DNA of 64,000 bases from Actinoplanes derwentensis. Its GTDB lineage: Bacteria > Actinomycetota > Actinomycetes > Mycobacteriales > Micromonosporaceae. This document shows, piece after piece, positions 19,402 through 42,743 of this stretch. A model generated the notes under the pieces. The model searched no databases and was not told where the DNA came from. It saw only the letters and a list, made by a program, of their open reading frames with translations. Position 1 is the stretch's first letter; every line of letters begins with the position of its first letter. The translations under genes and the position numbers were made by a program. The stretch lies in NCBI RefSeq assembly GCF_900104725.1, contig NZ_LT629758.1, positions 1,736,001 to 1,800,000 on the forward strand, read 5' to 3'.

Positions 19402-19429
19402 GGTCTCAGTTACCGTCTCAGACCTCCCG

Positions 19430-23338: not shown

Positions 23339-23348
23339 CTGAGGCAGG

Positions 23349-26817: not shown

Positions 26818-26829
26818 TCACTCTAAGCC

Positions 26830-26873: not shown

Positions 26874-26893
26874 TTTCACCTGGAGGTGATTAA

Positions 26894-27196
26894 ATGATCT
26901 CTGTCTCTGTCGCGGCGGTCTACGTCAACGCGTCTGTTGAGGATGTCCAAAGCAGCTACGACACTGCTGTAACGATGGTCTCCGATTTCCTCGGACCGGT
27001 TACATCTTGCCCTGTGGAGCTTCAAGAGCTTGCTGTACTGATGGGCACTGCTCGTCTTTTCGAACTCCGGAACAGTCCGAACGCTTCGGTTCAGTGGTCA
27101 CCTGACGGTTCCACGATGGCATTCACTCCCAAGGATCCGTTCACGACCGTCAAGAGTTTGCTTCGCAAATACAAGCCTATCGGTGGTTGTGGCTGA
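26894..27196 (+). CDS. Head-tail connector protein
   Basis: A 100-residue protein with GGAGG before ATG 26894. The mainly helical sequence (VYVNASVEDVQSSYDTAVTM, then LQELAVLMGTARLFELRNSP) and the place just after the capsid gene fit a gp6-like head-tail adaptor. Its TGA overlaps the next ATG. Confidence 0.6.
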   Translation: MISVSVAAVYVNASVEDVQSSYDTAVTMVSDFLGPVTSCPVELQELAVLMGTARLFELRNSPNASVQWSPDGSTMAFTPKDPFTTVKSLLRKYKPIGGCG

Positions 27197-27561
27197 TGGA
27201 CATCCAATCGATCCGAGCCAGACTCAAGGCAGCTTTGGAATCCACGGGCCTCACAGTCACCGATGGCGAAGACGCAAGGGTTCAGGTTCCTGCTCTGCTG
27301 ATCTCTCAGCCTGCCGGTCAGTTCATCGAGGCCAGCGGCAACGGATACACCCTGTACTTCGAAGTCACAGCCATAACCCGTATCGGGTCGATGAAACAGA
27401 ACGTCGAAGAACTCGATGCCATGGTCCAGGCGGTCATACTCGCCGCAGACGAACACTTCTTCGGTTTCCGTGGCTGTACGAGCTACGCACTAGCCAACAT
27501 CAATGGCGCTGATACTCCGTGCGCCGTCATCACACTCTCATACTTGGAAGGGGTTCAATAA
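27196..27561 (+). CDS. Putative tail terminator / neck protein
   Basis: A 121-residue protein starting in a TGATG overlap. The alpha/beta pattern (MDIQSIRARLKAALESTGLT, VPALLISQPAGQFIEA, MKQNVEELDAMVQAVILAAD, ANINGADTPCAVITLSYL) resembles lambda gpU/tail-terminator proteins that cap the tail tube below the neck. The family call is from pattern and gene order only. The stop shares one base with the next start. Confidence 0.5.
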   Translation: MDIQSIRARLKAALESTGLTVTDGEDARVQVPALLISQPAGQFIEASGNGYTLYFEVTAITRIGSMKQNVEELDAMVQAVILAADEHFFGFRGCTSYALANINGADTPCAVITLSYLEGVQ

Positions 27562-27971
27562 TGGCTCTCAATGGTCTTCGCGCAAACCGACTCAGCATCC
27601 TTGTTGGTGCAGTCGAGAAAAACTACGAATGCACATCCGTCGCTATCAGCTCCGAGGACACTGACGCCGGTTTCGTGTCGTTCGCTGACACCTCGGATGG
27701 CAAGTCCTACAGCCTCGTGATCACTGTCGCCCAGGGCGACACTCTGTCGCTCGTTGGGTACAACAACGCTGGTGAAACCCGTACCGTCACGGTCGATTTC
27801 AACCGCATGGATGGTTCTAAGATCCGTGTCACTGGCACCGTTACCGTGGCCGCTACCGATGGCACCGTGTTCGGTGGGGATGTCGACAAGTCCGGCAGTG
27901 CTCTGTTCACATCGGAGATGACGTGGCCGTTCCTGGCGAAGCCGACTCAGACTCTGATCGCTGCTCCCTGA
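27561..27971 (+). CDS. Putative major tail tube protein
   Basis: A 136-residue, beta-rich, Thr/Val/Gly-rich protein (DTSDGKSYSLVITVAQGDTL, GETRTVTVDFNRMDGSKIRV) that ends with EMTWPFLAKPTQTLIAAP. Size, strand content and place between terminator-like and chaperone genes fit a small tail tube protein. ATG 27561 overlaps the stop before it. A decoration or head-completion protein is the alternative. Confidence 0.5.
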   Translation: MALNGLRANRLSILVGAVEKNYECTSVAISSEDTDAGFVSFADTSDGKSYSLVITVAQGDTLSLVGYNNAGETRTVTVDFNRMDGSKIRVTGTVTVAATDGTVFGGDVDKSGSALFTSEMTWPFLAKPTQTLIAAP

Positions 27972-27974
27972 TCA

Positions 27975-28352
27975 ATGAGAGATTCCGGTGGTGTTCGGAT
28001 CGAGGGTCTTGCTAGAGCCGTCAACGGTCTAATCCGATCCGGTGTAGAACTTCAGGATCTCAAGGCTGCCTTTGGTCGGATTGCGGATCTGGGTGTGGAG
28101 CTGGCTAGCCGGTTCGCACCCATCCGTACCGGTGCCCTTCGTCGATCCATCAGAGGCAGCAAGGCGAAGAACAAAGCCACAGTCCGCGCTGGTGGTGCCA
28201 GGCTCCGATATGCCGGACCGATCAACTACGGCTGGCCACGCCGCGAGATCCAGCCAAACCTATTCCTTCAGCGTGCGGAGACAGTCCTCCGCCCTGATGT
28301 ACTCCCGATTCTCGAACGCGAGATCAACACAATCCTTGAACGACAATTCTGA
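27975..28352 (+). CDS. HK97 gp10-like neck protein
   Basis: A 125-residue protein with the clear HK97-gp10 signature: LGVELASRFAPIRTGALRRS followed by a basic stretch, YAGPINYGWPRREIQPNLFL and a final helix LPILEREINTILERQF. These proteins join head and tail. The gene starts 3 bases after the preceding stop. Here it lies after the tube-like gene, not before it, a somewhat unusual order. Confidence 0.8.
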   Translation: MRDSGGVRIEGLARAVNGLIRSGVELQDLKAAFGRIADLGVELASRFAPIRTGALRRSIRGSKAKNKATVRAGGARLRYAGPINYGWPRREIQPNLFLQRAETVLRPDVLPILEREINTILERQF

Positions 28353-28364
28353 AAGAGGTACCCA

Positions 28365-28613
28365 ATGTCTACCTTCACCGCCCTTGACCTCACCGTTGAG
28401 GAAGCCTTCAAATCCCTGACTGGTTTCCAGAGCATCGCGATTCGGCAGACGTTCGGTAAGCCGGTCCAGGAACTCGACAACCTCCTCATGGTGTATGCCC
28501 TCCTGATGTGCCACAGCGGACGTTCCTATGAAGAGGTTATGAAGCTTTCGATCTCGGAGGTTGACGCTCTGTTCAAGGCGGAGGATGAGGACCCCTTTCG
28601 CGGAAAAGCGTGA
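28365..28613 (+). CDS. Tail assembly chaperone, short form
   Basis: An 82-residue acidic, helical protein directly before the overlapping frame and the tape measure gene, the place of the gpG-type chaperone. It ends EVDALFKAEDEDPFRGKA. The next frame overlaps it and is in the +1 phase; the shift could occur at CCC-TTT (28593-28598), where Pro-tRNA may slip from CCC to CCT. GAAAGAGGT is upstream of the ATG. Confidence 0.7.
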   Translation: MSTFTALDLTVEEAFKSLTGFQSIAIRQTFGKPVQELDNLLMVYALLMCHSGRSYEEVMKLSISEVDALFKAEDEDPFRGKA

Positions 28614-28746
28614 CCTCAGCAACGACCCGTGGGGACACCTCGGGTTGTTCATCACCTTTGGCTTCACCCCTGATCAATACCGATCTATGACCTTTGCGGA
28701 AATCGACTGTGCCTTGGAGGCATACAGCAAAAAGAACAGGATGTGA
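28594..28746 (+). CDS. Tail assembly chaperone, frameshifted extension
   Basis: About 50 codons in the +1 frame read PFAEKRDLSNDPWGHLGLFI, then TFGFTPDQYRSMTFAEIDCA and LEAYSKKNRM. They have no good independent start (an ATG at 28585 has a badly placed GGAGG). By analogy with gpG-gpGT pairs, they are probably made as an extension of the 28365 product by +1 frameshifting at the Pro codon 28593-28595, giving a fusion of about 127 residues. A -2 shift would give the same frame. The stop overlaps the tape measure start region. Confidence 0.55.
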   Translation, partial: PFAEKRDLSNDPWGHLGLFITFGFTPDQYRSMTFAEIDCALEAYSKKNRM

Positions 28747-28748
28747 CC

Positions 28749-29278
28749 ATGGCGGGATCGTCGATTGTAATCAGCATTCTCAGCAACAGTGCTAGGGCTC
28801 GTGCGGACTTCGTTAGAACCTCACGATCTCTGGACCGGCTAGGGGATTCGAGCAGGGCTGTAGGCAGAACCCTCAGTGGTGTTACGTCAGGTCTGACATC
28901 GATCGGTCGAAGCGTCAGCAACGTCGGTGGCAACATCCTGAGTGTCACTACGAAGGTCGGATCTCTTGCTACCGCTCTAGTAGGTGTCGGTGCTGCTATT
29001 CCTGTGATTGCTGGACTCGGTGTCGAGTTCAAGAACCTCACAGGACTGCTGTTCCTGGTGCCTGCTATCGGTGCCAGCATCGCGGCAACCATCGGTGCAA
29101 TCGCCATCGGTTCTAAGGGCCTGGGTGATGCTCTTGAAGCTGCCTTCCTGCCTCTGACTGCCAAAGGCAATGAGGACTTCGCGAAGCAGATCGAAGGACT
29201 CTCACCGGCTATTCAGCGGCTAGCTGTTCGTGTCCGTCGTCTGTCACCTGCTCTGGTCAAGGTTCGGGAGAACGTCTC
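28749..29278 (+). pseudogene. Tape measure protein, part 1 of 3
   Basis: Start of the tail length gene: MAGSSIVISILSNSARARAD, then a long glycine/serine/alanine region with hydrophobic helices (VGSLATALVGVGAAIPVIAG, LVPAIGASIAATIGAIAIGS). ATG 28749 has AGGA 7 bases upstream; GTG 28743 overlapping the previous stop is an alternative. The frame is broken at 29278 by an IS30-type element with the 3-bp duplication CTC. Joined parts give 702 residues. Confidence 0.88.
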
Positions 29279-30326
29279 GGCGAGTTCAGTCAGTCGTAGC
29301 ATTTGATCTTGATGGGTCGGTGGGACAGGATGCCCGCCGTGCGCAACATGTTGACCCTGGTCGATCGTGAAGAGATCTCCCGTGGCTTGGCCGAGGGCCT
29401 GGAATTCAAGGAGATTGCCCGGCTGATCAGCCGGAACCCGTCGGTGGTCTCACGGGACGTGGCCCGCCACGGCGGCCGGGCGGAGTACCGGGCCGTGACT
29501 GCGGACCAGTTGGCGCTGACCGGTCGGTTGCGGCCGAAGGCGTACGCGGTCGACCGGTCACCACGGCTGCGGACGGTGGTCACGCAGCTGCTCAAGGGCG
29601 GCTGGTCGCCGGCGTCGATCGCGGGCCGGTTGCCGCGCGACTACCGCGACGATCAGGCTGTACGGGTGTCACACGAAGCGATCTACCAGTGGGTCTACGC
29701 CCAGCCGGTGTCCGCCCTGGCTCGGGAACTGCTGAAGCTGCGCACCGGCCGGACCGCCCGCCGTTCGGGCCCCCGCCCGGCCCCGGCCCCGCGGATCCGT
29801 GAGCCCCGCTACCTCGACGAACGCCCCGCCGAGGTCGAGGACCGGCAGGTGCCCGGCCACTGGGAAGGCGACCTCGTGATCGGCAAGGCCGGCAGGTCCG
29901 CAGTCGCGACCCTGGTCGAGCGGACCTCCCGGATGCTGGTCCTGGTCCCGTTGACCGGACGCGACGCGCTGACCGTCGGCGACGCGGTGATCGCCGCCGC
30001 CGGAACGCTGCCGCCACAGATCGCCCGCTCGCTGACCTGGGACTGCGGCTCCGAGATGGCCGGACACGCACGGATCACCGCCGCCGGGCTGCCGGTCTAC
30101 TTCGCCCGCCCGCACTCACCATGGCAGCGCGGCAGCAACGAGAACGCGAACCGCATCCTGCGCGAGTACTTCCCGAAAGGCGTCCCGATCACATCAGATC
30201 CGAAATACCTGGCAATGGTGGCTTCCGAAATCAATGACCGACCCCGTAAGATCCACAATTGGAAGAAGCCCTCCGAGATATTCGCCGAACTCGTAGAGGA
30301 AAATGCTTCGACTGCCTGAATCTGCC
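29279..30326 (+). mobile_element. IS30-family insertion sequence, copy A
   Basis: 1,048 bases from GGCGAGTTCAGTCAGTCG to GACTGCCTGAATCTGCC. The two ends form imperfect inverted repeats of about 26 bases. CTC duplicates at 29276-29278 and 30327-30329. It is in plus orientation. An equally long copy with the same 338-residue transposase lies in opposite orientation at 31389-32436. Confidence 0.93.
29303..30319 (+). CDS. IS30 family transposase, copy A
   Basis: A 338-residue transposase: an N-terminal helix-turn-helix (LVDREEISRGLAEGLEFKEI, ARLISRNPSVVSRDVARHGG), and a DDE core with GHWEGDLVIGKAG, TWDCGSEM and SNENANRILREYFPKG. Domain order and length are typical for IS30. Intact, so probably active. 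Its GC-rich codon use contrasts with the phage gene it interrupts. Confidence 0.95.
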   Translation: MILMGRWDRMPAVRNMLTLVDREEISRGLAEGLEFKEIARLISRNPSVVSRDVARHGGRAEYRAVTADQLALTGRLRPKAYAVDRSPRLRTVVTQLLKGGWSPASIAGRLPRDYRDDQAVRVSHEAIYQWVYAQPVSALARELLKLRTGRTARRSGPRPAPAPRIREPRYLDERPAEVEDRQVPGHWEGDLVIGKAGRSAVATLVERTSRMLVLVPLTGRDALTVGDAVIAAAGTLPPQIARSLTWDCGSEMAGHARITAAGLPVYFARPHSPWQRGSNENANRILREYFPKGVPITSDPKYLAMVASEINDRPRKIHNWKKPSEIFAELVEENASTA

Positions 30327-30329
30327 CTC

Positions 30330-31388
30330 TGCTGCTTTGGTGGAGCCTTTCAGTCGCAGACTGGAGAGTGCAGCTAGCCGGCTGCTGCCAACCCTGGACC
30401 GTGGACTTACGAAGATAGCTGGGACTCTCGGCAACTTCGGTGGTCGCTTCCTGGAGTTCCTGGCTGACAGTCGTTCTCTGTCCGTTCTGGAGAAGGTCTT
30501 CACCAACACCGCTGTCGCTCTTCAGAACTCTTCCGATGGTGCCTTCAGCCTGTTCCGGCAACTGCGGCGCATCACCGGGATCGGTGCCGACTTCCTGCCC
30601 CGTATCGGTACCGCCGTAGGGGACTTGCTTCAGAACATCAGTGACCGTCTCGCAAAGGTGAACGTCCGTAAGGCTATCGAGGACGGTATCCAGGCAGCGA
30701 AGGATCTCTACAGTGACTTCAAGCTGGTGCTCAGTATCGGCAAAAAGCTGGGCTCGGTGTTCAGCTCGATCTTCGGTGACGACATCAATACGACGTTCCT
30801 TAATGTCATCGATGAGGCTGCTAAGTCCCTCGACAAGTTCTTCAAGACCGCTGGTGCTCAGGAAGACATCCGTCTACTGAAGACCACCATCAACGATCTG
30901 GCTCGGATCTTCACCAGGGACCTCAAGGCGCAGTTACCGGACATCCTGTCGTCGATTCGTATCCTGCTGCCACAGGCTGTCTCGCTGTTTGATTCGATCA
31001 GCAGATTTGGTGCCTCACTGTCTCCGTCGCTGCCGTTGCTCAGTCAGGTGCTGGTCGGTATCGCTGAGTTCGTGGGTTCTGGACTGGACGCAATCACTGA
31101 CAAGCTGATCAAGCCGTTGACCAAATTCGGCGGTGGCAGTGAGGTCGCTACGTTGACGGCTCTGTTCGTCGCCATCGGTGCGGTGAAGGGCTTGAGCGCT
31201 CTCGCAGGCCTCGGTGACAAACTTTTCGGTGGTCCTCTCGGTCAGATCTTCGATCGTTTCGGCAAGCGTGGGGAAAGCCCTGCCAAACCGTGGTACGTCT
31301 TCGTGGTCAACCCCTCTGGCGGCTCCAGTGATGTCGTCCCTGGTGGTGGTGCCGGTAGGGGCAGACGAATTCTCGACACCCTGAAGAC
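30330..31388 (+). pseudogene. Tape measure protein, part 2 of 3
   Basis: Middle of the tape measure gene, between two IS30 copies: AALVEPFSRRLESAASRLLP, then long amphipathic helices (FLEFLADSRSLSVLEKVFTN, LLPQAVSLFDSISRFGASLS, LTALFVAIGAVKGLSALAGL). The frame is in phase with parts 1 and 3 when both IS and one target copy each are removed. Inverted IS copies on both sides mean that recombination could flip this segment. Confidence 0.88.
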
Positions 31389-32436
31389 GGCAGATTCAGG
31401 CAGTCGAAGCATTTTCCTCTACGAGTTCGGCGAATATCTCGGAGGGCTTCTTCCAATTGTGGATCTTACGGGGTCGGTCATTGATTTCGGAAGCCACCAT
31501 TGCCAGGTATTTCGGATCTGATGTGATCGGGACGCCTTTCGGGAAGTACTCGCGCAGGATGCGGTTCGCGTTCTCGTTGCTGCCGCGCTGCCATGGTGAG
31601 TGCGGGCGGGCGAAGTAGACCGGCAGCCCGGCGGCGGTGATCCGTGCGTGTCCGGCCATCTCGGAGCCGCAGTCCCAGGTCAGCGAGCGGGCGATCTGTG
31701 GCGGCAGCGTTCCGGCGGCGGCGATCACCGCGTCGCCGACGGTCAGCGCGTCGCGTCCGGTCAACGGGACCAGGACCAGCATCCGGGAGGTCCGCTCGAC
31801 CAGGGTCGCGACTGCGGACCTGCCGGCCTTGCCGATCACGAGGTCGCCTTCCCAGTGGCCGGGCACCTGCCGGTCCTCGACCTCGGCGGGGCGTTCGTCG
31901 AGGTAGCGGGGCTCACGGATCCGCGGGGCCGGGGCCGGGCGGGGGCCCGAACGGCGGGCGGTCCGGCCGGTGCGCAGCTTCAGCAGTTCCCGAGCCAGGG
32001 CGGACACCGGCTGGGCGTAGACCCACTGGTAGATCGCTTCGTGTGACACCCGTACAGCCTGATCGTCGCGGTAGTCGCGCGGCAACCGGCCCGCGATCGA
32101 CGCCGGCGACCAGCCGCCCTTGAGCAGCTGCGTGACCACCGTCCGCAGCCGTGGTGACCGGTCGACCGCGTACGCCTTCGGCCGCAACCGACCGGTCAGC
32201 GCCAACTGGTCCGCAGTCACGGCCCGGTACTCCGCCCGGCCGCCGTGGCGGGCCACGTCCCGTGAGACCACCGACGGGTTCCGGCTGATCAGCCGGGCAA
32301 TCTCCTTGAATTCCAGGCCCTCGGCCAAGCCACGGGAGATCTCTTCACGATCGACCAGGGTCAACATGTTGCGCACGGCGGGCATCCTGTCCCACCGACC
32401 CATCAAGATCAAATGCTACGACTGACTGAACTCGCC
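31389..32436 (-). mobile_element. IS30-family insertion sequence, copy B
   Basis: Same 1,048-base element as copy A in minus orientation, with its own 3-bp duplication GAC (31386-31388 and 32437-32439). Separate perfect duplications show two independent insertions and argue against an inversion between the copies. Confidence 0.93.
31396..32412 (-). CDS. IS30 family transposase, copy B
   Basis: 338 residues, identical to the product of copy A over its whole length, with the same helix-turn-helix and DDE motifs (EGDLVIGKAG, TWDCGSEM, NENANRILREYF). The identity implies that one copy recently gave rise to the other or both came from the same source. Confidence 0.95.
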   Translation of the reverse strand: MILMGRWDRMPAVRNMLTLVDREEISRGLAEGLEFKEIARLISRNPSVVSRDVARHGGRAEYRAVTADQLALTGRLRPKAYAVDRSPRLRTVVTQLLKGGWSPASIAGRLPRDYRDDQAVRVSHEAIYQWVYAQPVSALARELLKLRTGRTARRSGPRPAPAPRIREPRYLDERPAEVEDRQVPGHWEGDLVIGKAGRSAVATLVERTSRMLVLVPLTGRDALTVGDAVIAAAGTLPPQIARSLTWDCGSEMAGHARITAAGLPVYFARPHSPWQRGSNENANRILREYFPKGVPITSDPKYLAMVASEINDRPRKIHNWKKPSEIFAELVEENASTA

Positions 32437-32439
32437 GAC

Positions 32440-32959
32440 TGCTGGTGGAACCGTCGCCATCTACTACGGTGCTGGCAAGTTCCTTGAGTCGATGAACCTC
32501 GTTTCCGAGAGGGACTGGAATGTGTTCAGCACGTCTTTTTGGACTGAGGCCCTGAAGACGTTCACCGGAGACGGCACTGTCGGACCTCTGGGTCAAGCGA
32601 TCACGAAGTACATCGACGAGCCGCTGGCGAAGTTCTTCACTGTGTCGCTTCCTGGGTACTGGACCTCCCTAAAGGTGTCTGGTGTAGAAGCGATCAACTA
32701 CCTCATCACTAAGTTCAACGGTTTCCTGTCTTACCTCGATGAGATCGGCAAGACGGTTCCGTTCTTCGGCGACAGTTTCAAGTCCTCTTCGAAGATTCCT
32801 CCGCTGTCTACCGAGCTTGCGACTAGGGATGTCACCAGCGATCGGAAGATCAATCAGGGTGTCGTCATCAATGTCAATGGCGCCTATATGACGAAGCAGG
32901 ACGTAGGCGCTGCGGTCCAGGACGCTCTCAACAGCTTCAACAAATACCGGGGTCGATGA
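32440..32959 (+). pseudogene. Tape measure protein, part 3 of 3
   Basis: C-terminal part after IS copy B: AGGTVAIYYGAGKFLESMNL, then FWTEALKTFTGDGTVGPLGQ, and a final polar part NVNGAYMTKQDVGAAVQDAL ending NSFNKYRGR. The stop overlaps the start of the distal tail gene (ATGA). As the part cannot be reached by ribosomes from part 1, no functional tape measure protein is expected. Confidence 0.88.
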
Positions 32960-33594
32960 TGGTTGACATTTACGATCCCGATCCTTCAGGTATCCACTTG
33001 ATAGTTGAGCGCTGGTATCCAGATGAGGCCACCTGGATTCAGCTCGCATTTTCCCAGTTCACGAACACCAAATTTGCGTATTCGACTACTGCGGTCCTGG
33101 AAGATCCTGAGTTGCCTGCCGACGAGCAGACCAACCCTCGATCAGTTCCGATCCTTCAACCTGGTTTGGCTACGGTGTCGTTCTCCAGATTGCACTCACA
33201 GCTCTACCGACCGCTGAAGGTAGGGGACGAAGTCCGTTGCCGATACGACAATAGGACGCTCTTCGATGGGATCGTTTCACAGACGAGTGTCAGTGGACGT
33301 TTAGACCGCCCTGGAGTGTTCGTCTGGGATTTCACTGCAACACTCATTAGCGATTCGGTTCTGGCATTGACTGAGGAGTATTGCTGGGTTGGCAGTCTGC
33401 CTGAAGAGCGTGCCATTGAACGATTGAAACGCGTAGAAACCCTCGGCTGGACTGTGGCTGTCCAGCAACCCACGACGGTCTCTTCAAACCGCAAGCTCCA
33501 GACCCAAACATTGATCCGTGAACCTGTCGTATTCGAAACATCGAATGGTGTCATCGAGTTCGTCGGTTCTGGATACCTCAACGAGATTGATTGA
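32956..33594 (+). CDS. Distal tail / minor tail protein
   Basis: A 212-residue, beta-rich protein directly after the tape measure gene (ATGA overlap), the usual place of a Dit-like protein. It contains QLYRPLKVGDEVRCRYDNRT and LFDGIVSQTSVSGRLDRPGV, the pattern of tail proteins with a small OB-like beta barrel found in actinophage minor tail proteins. It probably forms the ring at the tail tip. Exact family cannot be assigned from sequence reading. Confidence 0.6.
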   Translation: MMVDIYDPDPSGIHLIVERWYPDEATWIQLAFSQFTNTKFAYSTTAVLEDPELPADEQTNPRSVPILQPGLATVSFSRLHSQLYRPLKVGDEVRCRYDNRTLFDGIVSQTSVSGRLDRPGVFVWDFTATLISDSVLALTEEYCWVGSLPEERAIERLKRVETLGWTVAVQQPTTVSSNRKLQTQTLIREPVVFETSNGVIEFVGSGYLNEID

Positions 33595-33604
33595 GAGGCA
33601 CCCA

Positions 33605-33879
33605 TTGATTATCTTCGTCAAACGTCCAGCTTCCGGAGTCGCATCGGCTCCCATGGATAAGGTCGCGGTGTTCGTCGACAGTGATGGACTGCTTCAGTCT
33701 AAGGATCAGGCTGGAGTTTTGAAGACCCTTGGTGATGGGATTACGTCGGTCGCTCTGATCAACACTGCCGGTCTTAACAAGACGTACCGCATCACCCGTG
33801 ACTCGGGTGGAACCTTCGACTTCGTTGTCGCCGATGGTGCTCAGGGCATCCAGGGTCCACAGGGCATTCAGGGTCCTCA
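33605..33879 (+). pseudogene. Tail fibre protein, 5' part (split by IS1031-type element)
   Basis: TTG 33605 with GAGAGG 6 bases upstream. The protein begins MIIFVKRPASGVASAPMDKV, has an N-terminal tail-binding domain, and enters a collagen-like run (GAQGIQGPQGIQGPQ) where the IS lies. The target is TCA (33877-33879). Joined to 35289-36081 it gives 355 residues with the collagen-like run continuing in frame, so no base was lost. Confidence 0.85.
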
Positions 33880-33896
33880 GAGGGCGGTAAGAAAGA

Positions 33897-34304
33897 TTAG
33901 GTCCGTTTCGGGATGAGAGTGAATATTCCGGGTTCGTTCTCGATCAGGATTCCGCGGCTGACCATGCGTTTGAGTCGTGCCCGCGCGCCTTCGACGTGTT
34001 TCGGCGCGGGGTCGACGCCGACGGCGAGGCAGACGTCCTTGGCGCGCATCCCGGCCGGGTTCGCCGCGAGAGCGGCGAGAATCTGTTGGTAAGGGGCGCT
34101 GGCGATCGTCGGGTCGTCGTCGGTGAACTGCTCGGCGGCAAGGTCGCGCAGGGTCGTGCGGGTAGTCGCCAGATCGGCCAGCTCGCTGTCAAGGCGGGCG
34201 AGTTCGGCGGTGAGTGCGGTGATCTGCTCGCGGAGCTGGTCGGCGGCGTGACCAGCGGTGGTCTCTCGCTCGGCGATCAGGTCGAGGATCGCGGTCAGGT
34301 ACAC
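33897..34304 (-). CDS. IS passenger protein: coiled coil plus winged-helix-like domain
   Basis: A 135-residue protein 7 bases downstream of the transposase gene and in the same direction. Residues 1-60 form a long coiled coil (LIAERETTAGHAADQLREQI, TALTAELARLDSELADLATT). Residues 70-135 resemble a winged helix (ILAALAANPAGMRAKDVCLA, RLKRMVSRGILIENEPGIFT). It could bind IS ends or regulate the transposase. I know no named family; that it belongs to the IS is clear from the element boundaries. Confidence 0.7.
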   Translation of the reverse strand: MYLTAILDLIAERETTAGHAADQLREQITALTAELARLDSELADLATTRTTLRDLAAEQFTDDDPTIASAPYQQILAALAANPAGMRAKDVCLAVGVDPAPKHVEGARARLKRMVSRGILIENEPGIFTLIPKRT

Positions 34305-34311
34305 GGCGGAT

Positions 34312-35184
34312 TCACCGCCAGGTCGGCGTGACGGCGTTCGTCAGCCGACGCACGATGTTGGCCGTGGAGGCCCAGAGCGTGCGTGACACGCTCGATTCGG
34401 GCCGGCTCTCGTATTCGCGGGTCAGCCGCCGGTGCAGCATCAGGGTGCCGTTGACCTGCTCGACCAGCCATCGCTTCTTCACCGGCACGAACCCGGGCCG
34501 GACATCGGAGCGTTTCACGACCTCCACGTCGATGCCCAGCACGGCACCGTGCAGGGCGAAGTCCTGTTTGAACCCGGCGTCGACGAAGGCACGGGTCACC
34601 GTCGGCGTGTGTTCGGCGACCTTGTCCAGCAGCCGGATCCCGATCGCGTTGTCGGTCACGGACGCGGCGGTCACGATCACCGCGATGATCAGGCCGAGAG
34701 CGTCCACGGCCAGGCCGCGTTTGCGGCCGGGAACCTTCTTGCCGGCGTCTTTGCCGGTGGTCGCGGCGGGGACGTGGTTCGCGGCCCGGATCGACTGGGT
34801 GTCCAGGATGACCGCGGTCGGGTCCTCGGCACGGCCGGCCTTCTCGCGGGCCTGACAGCGCAGCAGGTCATGAATCGCGGCATCGGTGCCGTCATCACGC
34901 CACAACCCGAAGTAGTAGTAGGTCACCGGCTTCTGGGGCAGATCGTGCGGCAGGTACGCCCACTGGCAGCCGGTCCGGTTCTGATACAGGATCGCGTTCA
35001 CGATCTCTCGGAGATCCTGGTCGCCCACGCGTCCCGCGACCGAGACCCGTTTGGCTCTCCAGGCGTCCAGGAACGGGCCGATCAGCGCCCACTGTTCATC
35101 GGTGACGTCACTGGGGTACGGCTTACGCACGTTCATGACCAGCCCAACCGTGCAGCCGACCGGCCTGACGTGACCGATGTTCAT
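34312..35184 (-). CDS. IS5 family transposase (IS1031 group)
   Basis: A 290-residue transposase with the IS5-type N-terminal domain (YPSDVTDEQWALIGPFLDAW, TGCQWAYLPHDLP, YYYFGLWRDDGTDAAIHDLL) and a DDE core: AVILDTQSI, AFVDAGFKQDF and KKRWLVEQVNGTLMLHRRLT. Intact. The true start may be the internal ATG before NVRKPYPSD, 16 codons in. Divergent from nothing in the IS; the passenger gene follows it. Confidence 0.93.
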   Translation of the reverse strand: MNIGHVRPVGCTVGLVMNVRKPYPSDVTDEQWALIGPFLDAWRAKRVSVAGRVGDQDLREIVNAILYQNRTGCQWAYLPHDLPQKPVTYYYFGLWRDDGTDAAIHDLLRCQAREKAGRAEDPTAVILDTQSIRAANHVPAATTGKDAGKKVPGRKRGLAVDALGLIIAVIVTAASVTDNAIGIRLLDKVAEHTPTVTRAFVDAGFKQDFALHGAVLGIDVEVVKRSDVRPGFVPVKKRWLVEQVNGTLMLHRRLTREYESRPESSVSRTLWASTANIVRRLTNAVTPTWR

Positions 35185-35288
35185 CTATCACGCCATCGAG
35201 TGATCACTATCTACCGCGTACCCGCAGAACGATCTCCAAACGGACCCAACGCATAGATCAACCTAAACAGTCCGTGACCGCCCTCTCA

Positions 35289-36081
35289 GGGGAACGTCGG
35301 ACCACAGGGACCGGCAGGCACACCTTCACCTGTCGCTTCGGTCCACGGGCGGACAGGTGCTGTCGTTGGTGTCCTCGGTGATTATGCGGGCATCTACACA
35401 ACGACTGCTCAAGCTGCTGCTGCCGCACCAGTTCAGAACTTCAACGGTCGTACCGGGAACATCGTTCCTCAACAGGCTGACTATGACGCGTTCTTCACGA
35501 CGGTTGCTGAGGCCAGTGCTGCTGCTCCTGTTCAGAGTGTCCAGGGTCAGACCGGCAACGTCACGATCGCCCCTGCTGACATCGGTCTAGGCACGATCAC
35601 GGTCCCTGCCACTACACGATTCCAGTCGACTGCCGCTCAGGCTCTGACAACCACTGCCGCTACTGCTGGCACCCTGACGATTCCGGCGAACAAACTGGTT
35701 GCTGGCTCCACCTTCGATGTCGTCGTTCTGTTCTCGTCTCTGATCAACACCACGGCGGCATCCAACCTGGTGCTAACGATCCGGTCCAACGCCATTCAAG
35801 TGACGACTGCAACCATCGCTCTAGGCACTACCCCTGTTGCCTCCCCAGGTCGTGGCGGAGAGGCACGCTTCCGTGTGGTGTTCCGAAGCGCCGGATCTAG
35901 TGGGTCAGTGATCGCTAACGGCGCGGTTCAGGTCAACAACTTGATGCCGATGGCAAGCAACACAGCCGGAACAATCACTGTCAACACGACTGCGTCAGTG
36001 ACTCTGGATGTCCTGGTGAACGTCTCTGCTGCAACGACTACCGGTCAGGTCCAGTCCGTTTCTATCGACCAGATTCTCTGA
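35289..36081 (+). pseudogene. Tail fibre protein, 3' part
   Basis: After the IS the frame continues GNVGPQGPAGTPSPVASVHG, finishing the collagen-like run, followed by repeated fibre units (HGRTGAVVGVLGDYA, NGRTGNIVPQQADYD, QGQTGNVTIAPADIG) as in many siphophage fibres, and a beta-rich C-terminal domain of about 160 residues that probably forms the receptor-contact head. Ends at TGA 36079-36081. Confidence 0.85.
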
Positions 36082-36090
36082 GGGGTAACT

Positions 36091-37080
36091 GAACTGATCT
36101 CAGCAAGGAATTGAAGCCGATTCGGGATGACACGGGTGAATAGGTAGTTTCGGACGGTCCTCGAAAAAGACGTGGAGCCATCGATAGACAGGTCTTGCGA
36201 CAGATCCACGTCTTCGAGAGGGCTCCACGTGCTGGCTTATCGTGCCATGGTCGACGTCCCGAGGGAACTGGTGCAGTACGTGGCGCGGTTGCTCCATGCC
36301 GAGCGCCGCGCCCGTGGCACGCGGAAGAAGACACGTGCGCTGACCTGCTTCTACCAGGCGTTACTCGTACTCGTCTGGTTCCGTAAGCAGGAAGACCTGA
36401 CACTGCTGGGCGCCGGTTTCGGGGTCTCCCGGGCGACCGCGTACCGCTACCGCGACGAGGGCATCGCGGTGCTCGCCGCCCAGGCACAGGACCTGCACAC
36501 CGCTCTGAAGCGGGTCGCCGCCGACGGCTGGTCGTACGTCATCCTCGACGGCAAACTGTTCGACTGCGACCGGCTGACCGAGACCACCCTGTCGGTCAAG
36601 GGAAAGACGATCGACGCCTGGTTCTCCGGAAAGCACCGCGACTTCGGCGCGAACATTCAGGCGATCATGCGCCCGGACGGACTGCCGATCTGGACATCGG
36701 CGGCGATGCCGGGGCATCTGCACGACACCAGCTGCGCCCGCGACCTCGGCGTCACCGCCGCCCTGAACTGGTCCGCCGCCGAACTCGACCTGCCGGCCTT
36801 GGCCGACTCCGGCTACGAAAGCACTGGTCAGGGCATCAAAACCCCAATCAAGCAACCGGCCGACGGTAAACCCCTCGCCGTCGACAACCGCGCCTACAAC
36901 CGGCTCCTACGCGGTCTGCGCTGGCAGGGCGAACGCGGCTTCGCGATCCTCGTCGGACGCTGGAAAGCCCTGCGCCGCACCACGATAAGCCCACGCCGCA
37001 CCGGCGATGTCGTCGCCGCCGCGCTGCACCTGACCCATTTCGAATACAAATACCTAACCGGATCTTGCTGAGATCAGTTC
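36091..37080 (+). mobile_element. IS5-family (ISL2-type) insertion sequence between RBS and start codon
   Basis: 990 bases with perfect 17-bp terminal repeats, GAACTGATCTCAGCAAG and its complement. The duplication ACT (36088-36090, 37081-37083) fits the ANY target of the ISL2 group. Before insertion AGGGG (36081-36085) lay 7 bases from ATG 37084; the element now parts them. Confidence 0.92.
36229..37071 (+). CDS. IS5 family transposase (ISL2 group)
   Basis: A 280-residue transposase with a helix-turn-helix-like N-terminal domain (QEDLTLLGAGFGVSRATAYR) and a DDE_Tnp_4-type core (SYVILDGKLFDCDRL, ALADSGYES, GERGFAILVGRWKALR). GTG 36229 is preferred as start because GAGAGGG lies just upstream; a frame extension of 19 codons runs into the IS end. 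Intact, so possibly active. Confidence 0.9.
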   Translation: MLAYRAMVDVPRELVQYVARLLHAERRARGTRKKTRALTCFYQALLVLVWFRKQEDLTLLGAGFGVSRATAYRYRDEGIAVLAAQAQDLHTALKRVAADGWSYVILDGKLFDCDRLTETTLSVKGKTIDAWFSGKHRDFGANIQAIMRPDGLPIWTSAAMPGHLHDTSCARDLGVTAALNWSAAELDLPALADSGYESTGQGIKTPIKQPADGKPLAVDNRAYNRLLRGLRWQGERGFAILVGRWKALRRTTISPRRTGDVVAAALHLTHFEYKYLTGSC

Positions 37081-37083
37081 ACT

Positions 37084-37260
37084 ATGTCTAACCACATTGA
37101 ATTCAGGATCGTCAACACACTCGCTCCCAGCGGTCAGGTAGCCGGCAGTCGACTCCAGGTCCGCACCAAGGATGTCGTCGCTTCGGTTCTGGGGCTGATC
37201 CCTCTTGCTGCCACATGGTCTGCGTGGACAGACGTTTCCGTTGAAGTAGTGAACGAATGA
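37084..37260 (+). CDS. Small tail-region protein, cut from its RBS by an IS
   Basis: A 58-residue protein, MSNHIEFRIVNTLAPSGQVA and then SRLQVRTKDVVASVLGLIPL, ending WTDVSVEVVNE. Codon use fits the phage. Its stop overlaps the start of the 362-residue gene (ATGA). The ISL2-type element lies between AGGGG and this ATG, so translation should be weak unless the IS supplies signals. The role is unknown; it may be a short minor tail component. Confidence 0.65.
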   Translation: MSNHIEFRIVNTLAPSGQVAGSRLQVRTKDVVASVLGLIPLAATWSAWTDVSVEVVNE

Positions 37261-38345
37261 CCTTCACAGCTATAGAGCCATCTCTGTTCTGGAGCTCAGC
37301 TACCGTAATCGATGTCACCCGATACAAATACGAGCTGGAAGTCAGCAACGTCAACGTCGTCAACCATCGTCGATTCGAAGCCCTCACCAACGGCAACAAC
37401 TACCCCGATGATAGTCGATGGATGGGTCCTCCGGCTGGCGGTAATCCTGGCACGACTTCGTTCGAAACCAACGGCGTCTATCCGTTCGCAGCCTTCGCTT
37501 TCATCGGGGACGGTCTCACTCATACGTTCGTTGTCGAGGCGTTCGCCAACCCGCAGCGTGGCGCTCTGATCGCCATCTACAGCAAAGCCAACTACCCGCC
37601 TGGAACTCGGTCACCGCAGTCGATGGGATTTGGCTCGACCACTCTTCCGATTCCTCCGAACAGTCCCACCATCACAGTCAATTTCCCGACGATCGACGGT
37701 CGTTTGTACTACTTCGAGGTGGCTCCTCCGAGTGCTGAAGCCGACACCCCAGGGCAGCCCGGCAGCGGTACCCACCAGTCGTTTCGGATCACGGTCAATC
37801 CGTCCGGGTTTCCTGATGCTCCAGCACCCGGCACTGAGGACGACGACGGTACTCCTAAAGACACACCGATTGGTGAAGACCCTCGGGATGTAGATGTCCC
37901 TCGTCCTACCACTCCTGCCGAACCTGAGACCTGTAGGTCTGTTTTGGACATGTGTAATGACTACAGCATCGCTACGGGTTCTGCGGTGCGCATCGATTGG
38001 CGTAACCGACGCATCCTGATCGTCGATCCTCAAGAGGCCTTACCTCCGGGTGTCGTCAACGGTCTAGGTGCCTCGTACTACAGCCGGATCACTGTCGACG
38101 TAGAAGCTGGAGACGAAACGCTACGTCTCGATGAAGGGTCTCAGGTCCAGACTGCTAGCGGTGACTGGCTAGACAACGACCTGAGGGTCTTGGATACCCA
38201 AGGGTGTCAACGGCTTCCTATGCCGAATCTGCCTCCTGGCAAAACTGTCCGTCTGCAGTACACGTTCACTCCGGATCGGTTCACTGCTCAGGTGGATTTG
38301 GTGTACGACGAAGTGCCATTGAAGAGCAAGATCTACTCAGACTAA
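37257..38345 (+). CDS. Minor tail / virion structural protein
   Basis: A 362-residue protein between two fibre genes. The first part is beta-rich with aromatic residues and a HTFVVEAFANPQRGALIAIY stretch like a carbohydrate-binding or bacterial Ig-type fold. Then comes a Pro/Asp-rich linker (residues 185-225: APAPGTEDDDGTPKDTPIGE) and a C-terminal beta domain (YYSRITVDVEAGDETLRLDE to LPPGKTVRLQYTFTPDRFTA). It is probably part of the tail tip or adhesin. Starts in an ATGA overlap. Confidence 0.6.
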   Translation: MTFTAIEPSLFWSSATVIDVTRYKYELEVSNVNVVNHRRFEALTNGNNYPDDSRWMGPPAGGNPGTTSFETNGVYPFAAFAFIGDGLTHTFVVEAFANPQRGALIAIYSKANYPPGTRSPQSMGFGSTTLPIPPNSPTITVNFPTIDGRLYYFEVAPPSAEADTPGQPGSGTHQSFRITVNPSGFPDAPAPGTEDDDGTPKDTPIGEDPRDVDVPRPTTPAEPETCRSVLDMCNDYSIATGSAVRIDWRNRRILIVDPQEALPPGVVNGLGASYYSRITVDVEAGDETLRLDEGSQVQTASGDWLDNDLRVLDTQGCQRLPMPNLPPGKTVRLQYTFTPDRFTAQVDLVYDEVPLKSKIYSD

Positions 38346-38403
38346 GAACCAAACACAAAGAGCAATACTCTAAGGGTGGTTTCTAAGAAAGGAAGTGGCA
38401 TCC

Positions 38404-38748
38404 ATGAAAGTCCGTGAACGCAAACCTATCGACCTACCGGCCGGTACGACGCTCATCAAGAACTACCGATTCGCTGTGATGGTGGACGGTGAGAAGGTCT
38501 ACCTCACCGATGAAGACATCGACTCTGTTCTGTTCCGCATCCGCGACGCTTCGAAGAGTCTGGTGATGTCGTATCCGCTGGTGTGCACAGGCGACCTCTG
38601 GTCTGTGGAGATCCCTGCCACCGAAACTCAGACGTGGTCCGACCACCGAGCTTTGTACTACGTCGTTGACAAGATCGTCGTTGACCGTGTGAGCCGCTAT
38701 ATCGAAGGACCAATCCGAGTGTCGCCCTATGGAGGTTTTGGAAAATGA
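38404..38748 (+). CDS. Small tail protein before the collagen-like fibre gene
   Basis: A 114-residue protein beginning [20 protein letters not shown] and containing [20 protein letters not shown] and [20 protein letters not shown]. The pattern resembles the small N-terminal domain of baseplate/upper-fibre proteins. AAGGAA lies before ATG 38404; an in-frame GTG at 38395 is less likely. The stop overlaps the fibre gene start (ATGA), so it may be a fibre adaptor. Confidence 0.6.
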
Positions 38749-40277
38749 GTGAGATCGAGATTGTAGAGATTCTGGAAGGTACCCCCGGTCCTCGGGGTGA
38801 GAAGGGAGATCCCGGTGCGGCGTCTACTGTCCCTGGTCCGGCTGGACCTGCTGGCGTTGCGGGACCTCCGGGTCCTACTGGCGCGGCATCTACCGTTGCG
38901 GGTCCGATGGGTCCTGCTGGTCCTGTTGGTCCGCAAGGCGTTGCTGGTGTTACAGGTCCGACAGGCTCTCAGGGACCGACAGGGCTAACCGGTCCTACCG
39001 GTCCTGCTGGGAGTACAGGCGCAACCGGTCCGGCTGGGCCTACCGGTGCAGCTTCTACTGTTCCTGGACCAATTGGACCTGCTGGTGCTACCGGTCCTGC
39101 TGGTCCCACGGGACCTGCTGGTGCTGATTCGACTGTGCCCGGTCCTGCTGGCGCAACGGGTGCCACGGGTCCTCAGGGTTTGACGGGAGCGACCGGACCT
39201 CAAGGCATTCAGGGTGTCAAGGGCGATACCGGTAACACCGGTGCCACTGGAAGTACGGGTGCCACAGGTCCACAGGGTTCGCCGAACACCCTTTCCATCG
39301 GGACGGTCACAAAGATTTCTGCTGGTGGAACTCCTACTGCTTCGGTCACTGGCACTGCTCCCAACCAGACTCTGAACCTCGGTTTGGTCACTGGTGACGG
39401 TGGAGCTGCTGGTGGGTCTCTGACTTACACCGTAATCGGTAGTGGTAGTTCTGCGGTCAGCGCCACAACAGGCAACCTGTACGTCATCGATACATCAACG
39501 TCAGTGCGACAGGTCAACCTTCCTGGCTCTCCGGCTGCTGGCGCGACTGTCGCATTCAAGAAAGCAACATCTGACCTCAATTACATCACGATCACGGACC
39601 CCAGTAGCTACACCATCGACGGAGAAGCGAACCTCCGGCTGTTCGGTCGCGATCAAACAGTGACTCTGATGTGGTCGGGATCTACGGCTACCGGTTGGAA
39701 GGTCGTTAACAAAGCCAATCCTGCACCCACCCAATACATCCCTTCCCTTGGGGTTTACGGCTCCAACTGGCAGTCAAATCAGATATTGAGCGGTTTAGCT
39801 CAGGGTGCGAACATGAGCCTCGCCGCCGGTACTGCGTATTACGTTCCAGTCTGGAATCCGACTCCGTGCCGGATCTCGACGGTTGGACTTCAGCTCCAAT
39901 CAAACTTTGGGGGGTCGGCGTTGTATGCGGGGGTGTTCTCGTGCAGCACTACTAACGCATCGATGCCGGGTGCTCTGTTGGGTTCGGGAAACCTTGACGA
40001 CTCTGTAGCTGGATTTAGGCAGTCCACTCTGGGAGGTACCCCCGTAACAGTCCCGGCAGGATGGAATTTCATTGCCTGGCTTGCAATCGGTGGCGCAGCT
40101 AGTGTCGTTTCGGCAGTTGGCACTCCTGCGTGGGCTGGGCACGTGAATTCGTCGACTTTTATTCCTGCTACGTGTGCCACGAAATCGGGTCAGGTCACTC
40201 TGGTGTCAAATCCGGCATCGCCGGGGCTCGTCTCGGGTGTCGGGTCCTGCCCTGCGTCTCTCTACTTCGTAAGCTGA
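38745..40277 (+). CDS. Collagen-like tail fibre protein
   Basis: A 510-residue fibre. After a short N-terminal part ([20 protein letters not shown]) comes a Gly-x-y collagen-like run from about residue 12 to 184, with repeated units such as [14 protein letters not shown]. Then a beta domain ([20 protein letters not shown]), a trimerisation-type stretch and a C-terminal head ([20 protein letters not shown] onwards). It should form a long triple-helical spike for host binding. It is the only large structural gene past the tape measure, besides the 37257 gene, left whole by the IS elements. Confidence 0.88.
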
Positions 40278-40296
40278 TCAGGAGGTAAAAAGGTTT

Positions 40297-40983
40297 ATGC
40301 CAGCACTGAACAATTTCCTTCGAACGTTCCGAGAGAAGGTGAACAAGAAGTACCCGAACCGCAAGAAGACTTCGGACGGAACCCTGGGTGACCAGGCACA
40401 TAAGTCTCGGGTTTCGGAACACAACCCAGATGGTGACGGCACGATCGACGCTTGGGACATGGACTGTAACCTCCTCGGCTCCTCTAACGACACTGGTTCT
40501 GCTGCTGAAGACGCAGAGGTTCGTAAGGTCATAGCCGAATTCTTGAAGCAGCCACAGGCTCAACTCGTCATCTACAACAAGCACATTCATAACGTCGACA
40601 TCGACGAACCTGGTGAATGGCGTTGGTACGGCGACTGGTCTAGCGGCAAAAACCCCCATGACCATCACGCTCATTTGCAGTCTAAGCAGTCCAGAGAAGA
40701 CATCACCTACAAGGGCAACCTTGACGGTGTGGTGAATGCTCAGCCGAAGCCTGCTACTGGTGAGCTCAGTCGAGGCGACACGGGCGAACGAGTGAAAGCT
40801 CTTCAGCGTGGTTTGCGCAAAGTCTTTCCGCTGTACTCCGGTGACCTCGAAGTCGATGGGCAGTACGGTTTGCGCACGGAAAAAGCTGTAGCCCAGTTCC
40901 AGAAACGCTCTGGACTGAAGGTCGATGGTGTCGTCGGCGGCATCACGAGAGCAGCGCTCGCGAAGCACGGAATCAAACTCTGA
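40297..40983 (+). CDS. Endolysin: M15-like peptidase plus peptidoglycan-binding domain
   Basis: A 228-residue lysin with GGAGGT before its ATG. Residues 20-140 are an M15-type peptidase: SRVSEHNPDGDGTIDAWDMD supplies the His/Asp zinc ligands and NPHDHHAHLQ the later catalytic/ligand histidines. Residues 155-228 are a PG_binding_1 domain (LSRGDTGERVKALQRGLRKV, TEKAVAQFQKRSGLKVDGVV). It should cleave peptide bonds in the host cell wall. The holin-like gene is far away on the other strand. Confidence 0.9.
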   Translation: MPALNNFLRTFREKVNKKYPNRKKTSDGTLGDQAHKSRVSEHNPDGDGTIDAWDMDCNLLGSSNDTGSAAEDAEVRKVIAEFLKQPQAQLVIYNKHIHNVDIDEPGEWRWYGDWSSGKNPHDHHAHLQSKQSREDITYKGNLDGVVNAQPKPATGELSRGDTGERVKALQRGLRKVFPLYSGDLEVDGQYGLRTEKAVAQFQKRSGLKVDGVVGGITRAALAKHGIKL

Positions 40984-40997
40984 CAAAGTTAGATGCT

Positions 40998-41012
40998 CGG
41001 CATAGTATGCCG
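40998..41012. promoter_or_regulatory. Odd-centred dyad, second location
   Basis: CGGCATA-G-TATGCCG, the complement of the core of the dyad at 19285-19301, placed between the endolysin stop and the shared terminator. Reuse of the same 15 bases at two prophage sites 21.7 kb apart suggests a protein-binding site. Confidence 0.5.
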
Positions 41013-41083
41013 TCCCTTTTCGTCCGATTCGTGGTCACGGACCGATGTGCGAGGATCGAGCACCTGAAGCGCACACCACAAAG

Positions 41084-41113
41084 AAGGACCCCCACCGGTT
41101 GGTGGGGGTCCTT
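41084..41113. terminator. Strong bidirectional terminator
   Basis: AAGGACCCCCACC and GGTGGGGGTCCTT form a perfect 13-bp stem with a GGTT loop, with A-rich and T-containing flanks. It ends both the late operon and the converging integrase gene. Confidence 0.9.
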
Positions 41114-41169
41114 TGCCATTCCTGCTGGGGACTGACCAGCGCTATTCTACTGGATTGGTCGGCTAGCGG

Positions 41170-42054
41170 TTACAGCCTGTCTCCGAGCTTGGCTGAACGA
41201 GCAGCACCTAACGCCCGTTGCTGAGCACGTGCTCTGCCGTAGACACTCGTCATGATGCTTCGCTCAGACCATCCAAACAGCTTGTTCATGTCCGGTGTCG
41301 AGATACCAGCTTCCATAGCTCGATCTGCTGCTGTGTGGCGGATCGACTTTGCATCCACGTGACCCAGACCAGCTTTCTTGGCCCGACGGACGACGATGTC
41401 TCTGAGAGTTGTGATACCCATCCCCAGGTCCGATTGCCTTCCGGTAAGCCACAACCAGGGTGATCCGGATTGCCTGTGCTTCTCGCGTAGCTTCATATAT
41501 TGCTCGATGGCTCGCGCTGTCTTGTCTCCGAACGGGATCGGACGCAGATAGGTCTTGGAGACGGAGACGTTAGCCACCTGATTCAACCAATCGATGTCTT
41601 CGACGCGCAGCAACCGAACCTCTGTGTTGCGCATCCCACCAGCTTCACTCATCAGACGGATTATGGCGGCGTCCCGCTTGTCTCGCAGATTGGGTCCGTC
41701 ACACGCTTTGATCAGCTTCCGGAGTTCAACCTCAGAGAGCACCCGAGGTGGTACGTCGTCGATGCTCGGTTGTGGCAGGCCCTTGAGCGGGTTCCGGGAG
41801 ATGTGTTCCTCGGAGACGCACCAGTTGAAGTAGGCACCCAGGTTGATGTAATGGTGCAGCCGTGTGGAGCCTTTGAACTTGCCGATCCAGGACTCTAACA
41901 GTTCTTCCAGGTCTAGCCTGCTGGCAGTGTGTACAGGCCCACCAGTGAAGTCAGCGACTTTGGCTCTGGACTTCCGGTAGTTGGTGACTGTCTGAGCGCT
42001 GATGCCGCGTAGCCGTAAGTGCCGCTCGTAGCTGAGCCAGACGCGATCGTCCAT
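41170..42054 (-). CDS. int: Tyrosine recombinase (phage integrase)
   Basis: A 294-residue integrase from ATG 42054 (GGGGAG 11 bases upstream); GTG 42090 would add 12 residues. Residues 1-90 are the core-binding domain (YERHLRLRGISAQTVTNYRK). The catalytic domain has Arg142 in GMRNTEVRLL, Lys167 in SKTYLRPI, Arg239 in KSIRHTAAD, Trp262 in FGWSE and Tyr272 in SVYGRA. The usual first His of the HxxR box is Lys here, an unusual but conservative change. It lies beside attR and reads away from it, as expected. Confidence 0.93.
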   Translation of the reverse strand: MDDRVWLSYERHLRLRGISAQTVTNYRKSRAKVADFTGGPVHTASRLDLEELLESWIGKFKGSTRLHHYINLGAYFNWCVSEEHISRNPLKGLPQPSIDDVPPRVLSEVELRKLIKACDGPNLRDKRDAAIIRLMSEAGGMRNTEVRLLRVEDIDWLNQVANVSVSKTYLRPIPFGDKTARAIEQYMKLREKHRQSGSPWLWLTGRQSDLGMGITTLRDIVVRRAKKAGLGHVDAKSIRHTAADRAMEAGISTPDMNKLFGWSERSIMTSVYGRARAQQRALGAARSAKLGDRL

Positions 42055-42101
42055 GAGTGCCGGATCTCCCCAATAGTTAGGGGTCTCCACAGTCCCTGTG
42101 C

Positions 42102-42140
42102 CTGACAGGCCGGAAGTTAGGGCGTAGATTCGCCCTGGTG
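42102..42140 (+). promoter_or_regulatory. Phage-borne promoter and start codon for the interrupted merR gene
   Basis: CTGACA (42102-42107), a 17-base spacer, TAGATT (42125-42130), 7 bases, then GTG 42138. This is a good sigma-70-type promoter in the leaderless arrangement; no ribosome-binding site is present. The hairpin AGGGCG/CGCCCT (42119-42136) overlaps it. All of it is prophage DNA, left of the attR core. Confidence 0.65.
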
Positions 42141-42743
42141 ACCGGTTTACTCCGCATCGGGGAGCTCGCCGCTCAGGCCGGGGTCTCCACCCGCACCGTT
42201 GACTATTACACGCAGTTGGGGCTGCTCACGTGCGCCGACCGCACCGGGGGTGGCTTCCGTCTCTATGATCAGACTGCTGTTGACACGATCGCCACGGTGA
42301 AGAGCCTGGAAGTCCACGGCCTGAACCTGCAGACCATCGCCACTGCCCTGCACGGTGAAGCCGACCGTGACCTCGCCGCCGGACTGGCCGACCTCTCCAC
42401 CGACCTGCACGCCCTCCAGCAGGCCGCCGAGGGAGCCCCGCATGCGCACGCCCTTCTCACCTTGATCAGCGGCCGGGCACACGCCCTGATCGACCTCGCC
42501 CTCGCGATAGTCGACTCCCCGCTGGTCTGGCAACCATACAGTCGCACGTACCGGTGTCCGGTTAACCCCTTTCTGGTACGCCAGGGTGAAGCCCCGGCCC
42601 CGGCCCCGCGAGGCGGCGACGGAGGCCTCAGTTCCGTTACACCAGCGGTTCGGCGACGTTGCGGGCCTGGGCGTGAGCGGTGCGCCGAGCCGGATCCGGA
42701 TCGGTCACGTCGGGCCCGAACCGGATCGGGTGGATCTCGGTGA
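42138..42743 (+). CDS. MerR family regulator, restored at attR
   Basis: A 201-residue MerR-type protein. The winged helix-turn-helix lies at residues 4-72 (LLRIGELAAQAGVSTRTVDY, then GFRLYDQTAVDTIATVKSLE), and a helical C-terminal part follows. The first five codons come from the prophage (MTGLL in place of MSDLL), the rest from the host, so the protein is almost unchanged. The last ~45 residues look random and overlap a pseudogene tail to tail, so the original end may have been lost. Before integration it was divergent from the CNNM gene at 15384. Confidence 0.85.
   Translation: MTGLLRIGELAAQAGVSTRTVDYYTQLGLLTCADRTGGGFRLYDQTAVDTIATVKSLEVHGLNLQTIATALHGEADRDLAAGLADLSTDLHALQQAAEGAPHAHALLTLISGRAHALIDLALAIVDSPLVWQPYSRTYRCPVNPFLVRQGEAPAPAPRGGDGGLSSVTPAVRRRCGPGRERCAEPDPDRSRRARTGSGGSR
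42153..42214 (+). repeat. attR core, 62-bp direct repeat
   Basis: Identical to 15438-15499. To the left is phage DNA with the integrase gene; to the right the host merR gene continues QLGLLTCADRTGGG. Recombination of the two copies would give the intact host gene and a circular phage. Confidence 0.93.

Follow-up and report, generated by a model that had tools for sequence, protein, structure and literature searches.

Some integrative elements replace the 5' end of the coding gene they insert into. Islands at dusA replace the dusA 5' end and carry putative -10/-35 boxes (PMC4482086), expression from IMEVchUSA3, likewise at dusA, has been shown by lacZ (PMC8409611), and SXT at prfC is cited in the latter paper as a 5'-end-replacing element. 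Two further arrangements are described. Phage HK022 substitutes promoters of its own for the native ones of torS, with mapped transcription starts and a demonstrated effect on host genes (PMC6814406). In M. abscessus, attB-12 and attB-13 overlap the translational starts of host genes, which therefore depend on transcription that begins in the prophage (PMC8092301). In the titles and abstract openings of the literature searched, we found no prophage attachment site in merR and nothing on a leaderless start codon as a prophage attB.

We analysed a 64-kb stretch of DNA (the window) from a single-contig genome of 10.65 Mb, in which direct repeats flank an integrase-bearing element inside the 5' part of a gene for a MerR protein (PF13411, PF00376; Table 1). 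The repeat is exact over 62 bp, the prophage between the two copies measures 26.7 kb, and its tyrosine integrase lies next to attR. A genome search that took as its query the initial 401 bp of the merR open reading frame (ORF) gave two places, attL and attR. Left of the core, attL reads ATGAGCGATCTGTTG, encoding MSDLL from the host ATG; attR reads GTGACCGGTTTACTC, encoding MTGLL from a prophage-borne GTG. The attL frame continues through the core, adds QFE and stops, for a total of 29 codons, and the attR frame passes from the core into the remainder of the MerR ORF. The in-frame start and the N-terminus at attR thus come from the element.

Table 1 Features of the merR attachment locus, in window positions
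Feature	Position	Strand	Evidence
CNNM/CBS/CorC_HlyC protein gene, divergent neighbour of native merR start	14032..15390 (5' end approximate)	-	Pfam
Operator-like motif CAAATGTATGTTTG, 4 nt before native merR ATG, beside CNNM at attL	15405..15418	+	Same motif in G013; predicted function
Native merR start and 29-codon stub (MSDLLRIGELAAQAGVSTRTVDYYTQQFE, stop) at attL	15423..15511	+	Translation; first 15 nt as in the uninterrupted gene of G013
attL copy of 62-bp core	15438..15499	+	Exact repeat
Prophage between cores: antirepressor, HNH, terminase, portal, head, tape measure, endolysin, integrase	15500..42152		Pfam and PHROGs, on part of the ORFs
Tyrosine integrase, divergent from merR	41170..42090	-	PF00589, phrog_1
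Promoter-like CTGACA-17-TAGATT, prophage-supplied	42102..42130	+	sigma70-like scan, leaderless signature
Chimeric merR ORF, 201 aa	42138..42743	+	MerR_1 4.4e-14; relatives end near codon 130
Prophage-supplied start and first five codons, GTG ACC GGT TTA CTC, MTGLL	42138..42152	+	
attR copy of 62-bp core	42153..42214	+	Exact repeat; 58/62 identical to G013
Inverted fuller copy of operator-like motif, at former merR end	42532..42554	-	Position; exact copy at same place in G013

An uninterrupted copy of the gene identifies the host arm. In the genus search a MerR was found in 8 of 67 genomes, the window's own counted, and the closest genus relative, G013, carries merR uninterrupted, with the attL-type start. 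We joined the window's two host flanks by script and aligned them with the G013 locus. They matched end to end, from the CNNM side to just beyond the end of merR, with 15/15 nt identical in the first five codons and 58/62 in the core. The attL start is therefore native and the attR start belongs to the prophage. By this alignment the native 5' end lies at the opposite junction, where excision would reunite it with the gene.

These results bear on most of what the sequence-only reading had claimed. Its 62-bp coding core, with the prophage inside the 5' part of merR, is borne out by the exact repeat and both junctions. It had also held that the native signals stay at attL with a 29-codon stub, in keeping with the attL translation and the G013 match, and that the prophage replaces the upstream signals, the start codon and the first codons, in keeping with an attR that reads GTG/MTGLL and leaves the whole regulator readable. 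The divergent orientation of the integrase gene relative to the merR start likewise holds, whether the integrase begins at GTG 42090 or ATG 42054. A tRNA-type attachment site, which it had excluded, can be set aside, as the core encodes part of MerR both in the window and in G013. It had named in advance, as evidence against itself, a prophage-free relative with the 42138-type start; G013 carries the attL-type start instead. The claim that integration cuts after codon 5 stands in part: identity begins there, and the crossover would lie somewhere within codons 6–26. The 62 bp of identity to this host exceed what recombination needs, and G013 differs at four of these positions, a point against the explanation favoured below. 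An 11-mer, GGGGTCTCCAC, read by eye at 42080–42090 near the integrase start and again at 42181–42191 inside the core, is possibly an integrase-related site.

As the whole explanation we favour a gene-preserving replacement of the merR 5' end by the prophage, with a probability of roughly 0.8. A temperate phage with a tyrosine integrase would have entered the 5' part of host merR, its attP carrying a diverged merR 5' end, in which a promoter-like sequence precedes the GTG, the five codons and the core of 62 bp. A crossover inside that core would then restore the full-length regulator at attR and strand the native start with its 29-codon stub at attL; selection probably favoured this arrangement because it keeps the host gene working. 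Thereafter MerR would depend on a prophage promoter of leaderless type and be separated from the upstream region it had natively, and a short operator-like motif would remain beside CNNM at attL. With its start codon replaced and a likely promoter provided by the prophage, production of the host protein remains possible.

The proposed promoter consists of CTGACA, a 17-nt spacer and TAGATT, which ends 7 nt before the GTG; first pointed out in the sequence-only reading, this arrangement proved to be the sole sigma70-like match in the 801 bp from 41900 to 42700 (mean 0.1 in 50 shuffles), and we accept it as promoter-like sequence. Across the prophage such matches are no commoner than in shuffles (2 versus 4.1 in 15500–30000, and 2 versus 2.7 in 30000–42137), and for this reason the local result carries weight. 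A leaderless signature was defined as a -35 box matching at least 5/6, TANNNT, 6–8 nt, a start codon and 29 open codons. With both strands of the 64-kb window counted, it has a single occurrence, against 0.25 expected from 20 Markov sequences; both the promoter scan and this signature test were post hoc. A 6-bp inverted repeat around the -10 box (AGGGCG-TAGATT-CGCCCT) was considered and dropped as not significant (191/2062 window versus 84/2000 Markov segments).

The promoter-like site could instead serve the phage itself, for example in rightward early transcription in the circle, so that the reading of merR would be a by-product. The three rightward promoter-like matches listed in the prophage all begin with CTGACA (15948, 40980 and 42102), and once the phage is circular, transcription from the 42102 site would pass through the stub toward the genes at 16 kb. 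Against this, such matches do not outnumber those in shuffles, and the site stands a leaderless spacing away from a start that, like the codons after it, resembles merR; the first ORF in the circle would moreover be the 29-codon merR stub. We consider a promoter dedicated to the phage unlikely.

The integrase had a match at E ≤ 1e-38 in 12 of 354 family genomes, window included. The core lies in a tRNA gene in 4 of the 12 (G098, G031, G204 and G319), at the 5' end of a protein gene in two (the window and G059), at a 3' end with the C-terminus replaced in one (G053) and in a gene interior, with the target disrupted, in one (G036); G103 has a tRNA beside the integrase and no core was recognised, and the tally leaves G048, G084 and G139 without an assigned site type. 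As the G036 relative disrupts its gene, the integrase group does not always preserve its target. The 3.7-kb element of G053 (L015), whose integrase is the closest relative (53%), gives a superoxide-dismutase-like gene a new 3' end that stays in frame. In G139 (L081, G139:C184) the integrase gene starts near the point where a primary-sigma-factor-like gene ends, and a second sigma-like gene with shared segments is found ~22 kb away; the repeated segments may be paralogues or att sites.

The G059 element (L018, G059:C1, ~4886833–4891753) is 4.9 kb long, and the ATG of a small gene falls within its 23-bp core; the element therefore replaces all sequence upstream of the start and leaves the ORF intact. 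One of the 11 integrase relatives thus carries out a 5'-end replacement, at a gene other than merR. The small gene has a match in all 67 genus genomes, and 29 of its 30 best-scoring loci (L103–L132) have the expected start motif. In these, NANNNT stands 7 nt before the ATG in 29/29 (CATATT in 20) and TANNNT in 0/29, and a Shine-Dalgarno-like string occurs 4–20 nt upstream in 16/29, so that translation of the small gene need not be leaderless. Two upstream types can be distinguished, CATATT-7-ATG and GCTTGTCG ... CAnnCT-7-ATG. The second, with GCTTGTCG as in the G059 element, is present at 10 of the 29 loci, mostly with no integrase recognised: a nearby integrase match was seen at two of the ten, L103 (G059 itself) and L112 (a fragment). 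At L107, which has GCTTGTCG and no integrase, the upstream gene, read by eye, resembles that of the other type. Because its carriers include L107 and others lacking an integrase, GCTTGTCG is probably a promoter type of the small gene.

Together, G059 and the window suggest repeated 5'-end replacement within this integrase group, a mode of insertion perhaps well matched to genes with only a few bases between promoter and start codon. A broader proposal is that this actinobacterial group repeatedly uses gene starts of leaderless geometry and that at merR lysogeny would amount to a heritable regulon setting, with the operator left with CNNM. Promoter and start codon would span less than 45 bp, so attP could carry a complete substitute expression signal. 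We regard this generalization as quite doubtful.

Searches for recurrence at merR itself returned nothing clear. The window integrase had no match in 30 other merR loci (30 of 41 other places found, with ~1.5 kb of flank each), a query that would miss another kind of integrase. Conversely, no clear MerR lay beside 47 integrase loci, which include the window's own prophage (L172, not reaching attR) and some with little DNA on the integrase start side; the sole MerR match was weak (E 0.007, L164). A search of genome contigs with integrase P0002 confirmed no relative, and neither the merR-core nor the prophage-arm pattern had a match in viral contigs. One viral contig (L012), with a 100% integrase match, is identical to window 38173–42054 and probably comes from the same strain. 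Compared with phage records by megablast, 25 kb of the prophage gave just a 38-nt match, in two records of one phage.

The neighbourhood of the native start suggests what MerR might control. The CNNM gene lies upstream of merR in 8/8 other genus loci (7 genomes) and adjoins merR in 14 of 30 relatives' loci, for which only ~1.5 kb of flank was available each. In 22 of 30 relatives the 130 nt preceding merR contain a TGTAYG-centred motif, often in the form CTARCACGTGnnACTGTAYGGTT; the motif is absent in the other eight, three of which have a TGTAGG variant, and is short in the window and G013 alike (CAAATGTATGTTTG). The inverted copy at the merR stop is exact in G013 and has 3 mismatches to the pattern in the window; at up to 3 mismatches the window's genome holds 2 matches versus 3 for a reversed control, so matches at this level mean little. 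In G013 the inverted copy lies between merR and a spo0M-like gene; of two more copies there, one (2 mismatches) immediately precedes a second CNNM gene. MerR may act on such operator-like motifs. The 130 nt ahead of the attR start contain no TGTAYG motif. After integration CAAATGTATGTTTG remains beside CNNM at attL and merR is 26.7 kb away; the native promoter region is thereby parted from the regulator gene, the former at attL and the latter at attR.

This separation raises the question of whether integration is favoured because it rewires MerR, and through it CNNM, with excision restoring native control. Such a switch tied to lysogeny, advanced in the sequence-only reading, has in its favour that the target is a regulator, that the native upstream region and the operator-like motif stay with CNNM at attL, and that HK022/torS shows such rewiring to be possible. 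The state of the prophage and the lack of recurrence argue against it. A DDE transposase gene (21978–23189) separates two pieces of the terminase large subunit (phrog_9 56–411 and 407–670), and an HTH_38/rve transposase gene (29303–30319) separates two pieces of the tape measure (phrog_6435 228–385 and 386–607); with both genes split, the prophage is probably defective and makes no particles by itself. No excisionase was identified among the prophage ORFs searched, a subset that may have missed one, or a repressor, and no second such insertion in merR was found among the loci examined. We therefore regard the switch as an improbable hypothesis, and because the prophage is probably defective the replacement may be close to fixed. 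Elsewhere in the prophage, a 33-nt repeat (19152–19184 and 20086–20118) is 97% identical over copies 934 bp apart, and a collagen-repeat protein (38745–40277) that adjoins the endolysin is probably a tail or fibre protein.

Evidence for a diverged merR 5' end in attP comes from the prophage arm. Some in-frame start within 60 nt with no intervening stop exists for 41% of prophage positions. A start in the exact register together with Leu-Leu or Leu-Met at codons 4–5 is found in 26 of 53,050 prophage 15-mers (0.05%), and the pair is kept in 29 of 30 merR relatives; the host and prophage arms use different codons for the two leucines. The arm reaches 10/15 identity to its best relative, as do 2.3% of random prophage 15-mers, and a mean of 6.7/15 to the 30 relatives, as do 0.8%. 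It is best read as a diverged 5' end of merR, and a chance ORF as the source of the attR start is unlikely.

Near relatives of the regulator end in DSPLV, SPLI or similar followed by TGA (TAA in G013); the window reads TGG at this point, so its MerR is ~70 residues longer. The tail (42500–42743) runs antisense into a gene for a flavodoxin-fold protein. The lost stop could reflect relaxed selection on the window's merR. For merR, dN/dS between the window and G013 was 0.18 counted from codon 6 and 0.22 when counting started at codon 27; the initial 280 codons of CNNM gave 0.15. Much of this divergence may be older than the integration. NCBIfam profiles gave 13 matches to MerR, all under the cut-off. 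That the frame at attR is open by accident and merR effectively inactivated, as the 41% of positions with some usable start, the missing stop and the disruptive relative in G036 might suggest, is improbable given the 0.05% frequency of the exact register with its leucine pair and the promoter-like site 7 nt before the start codon.

At the level of sequence, the merR locus is a clear example of a host transcription factor whose start, and probably promoter too, must come from a prophage, and the unoccupied site of a congener allows comparison. Should transcription be borne out, lysogeny would prove able to reset a regulator and yet leave it intact.

Among the systems cited above, the locus resembles the dusA and prfC elements, which also insert into the 5' part of a coding gene, supply a new start, N-terminus and promoter-like boxes, and leave the native 5' end at the other junction. 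It differs from them in having a transcription regulator as target and in its leaderless geometry; the dusA elements have 21-bp semiconserved repeats, in contrast to the identical 62-bp core here, and expression from IMEVchUSA3 was shown by lacZ, whereas the window shows promoter-like sequence. With HK022/torS it shares a host regulatory gene whose own promoters have given way to prophage sequence. The HK022 attB, however, lies between torS and torT and leaves the TorS protein unchanged (PMC6814406), and its transcription starts are mapped and its effect on host genes shown, where our case is read from the DNA. The M. abscessus attB-12 and attB-13 likewise place the core at a host gene start and need prophage-derived transcription; their cores are 3–25 bp long and include the ribosome-binding site, whereas at merR the start codon and five codons are prophage-borne as well. 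Integration-dependent immunity in actinobacteriophages (PMC8092301) shares with our locus a change in the length of a regulator frame that spans attP. There attP lies in the phage repressor gene, which is truncated, whereas here the attP frame would be a 29-codon, host-like merR stub that integration lengthens, rebuilding a host regulator in full. We conclude that the mechanism is most likely of a known kind, and that what is particular to this locus is the regulator as target, the 62-bp core and the leaderless geometry.
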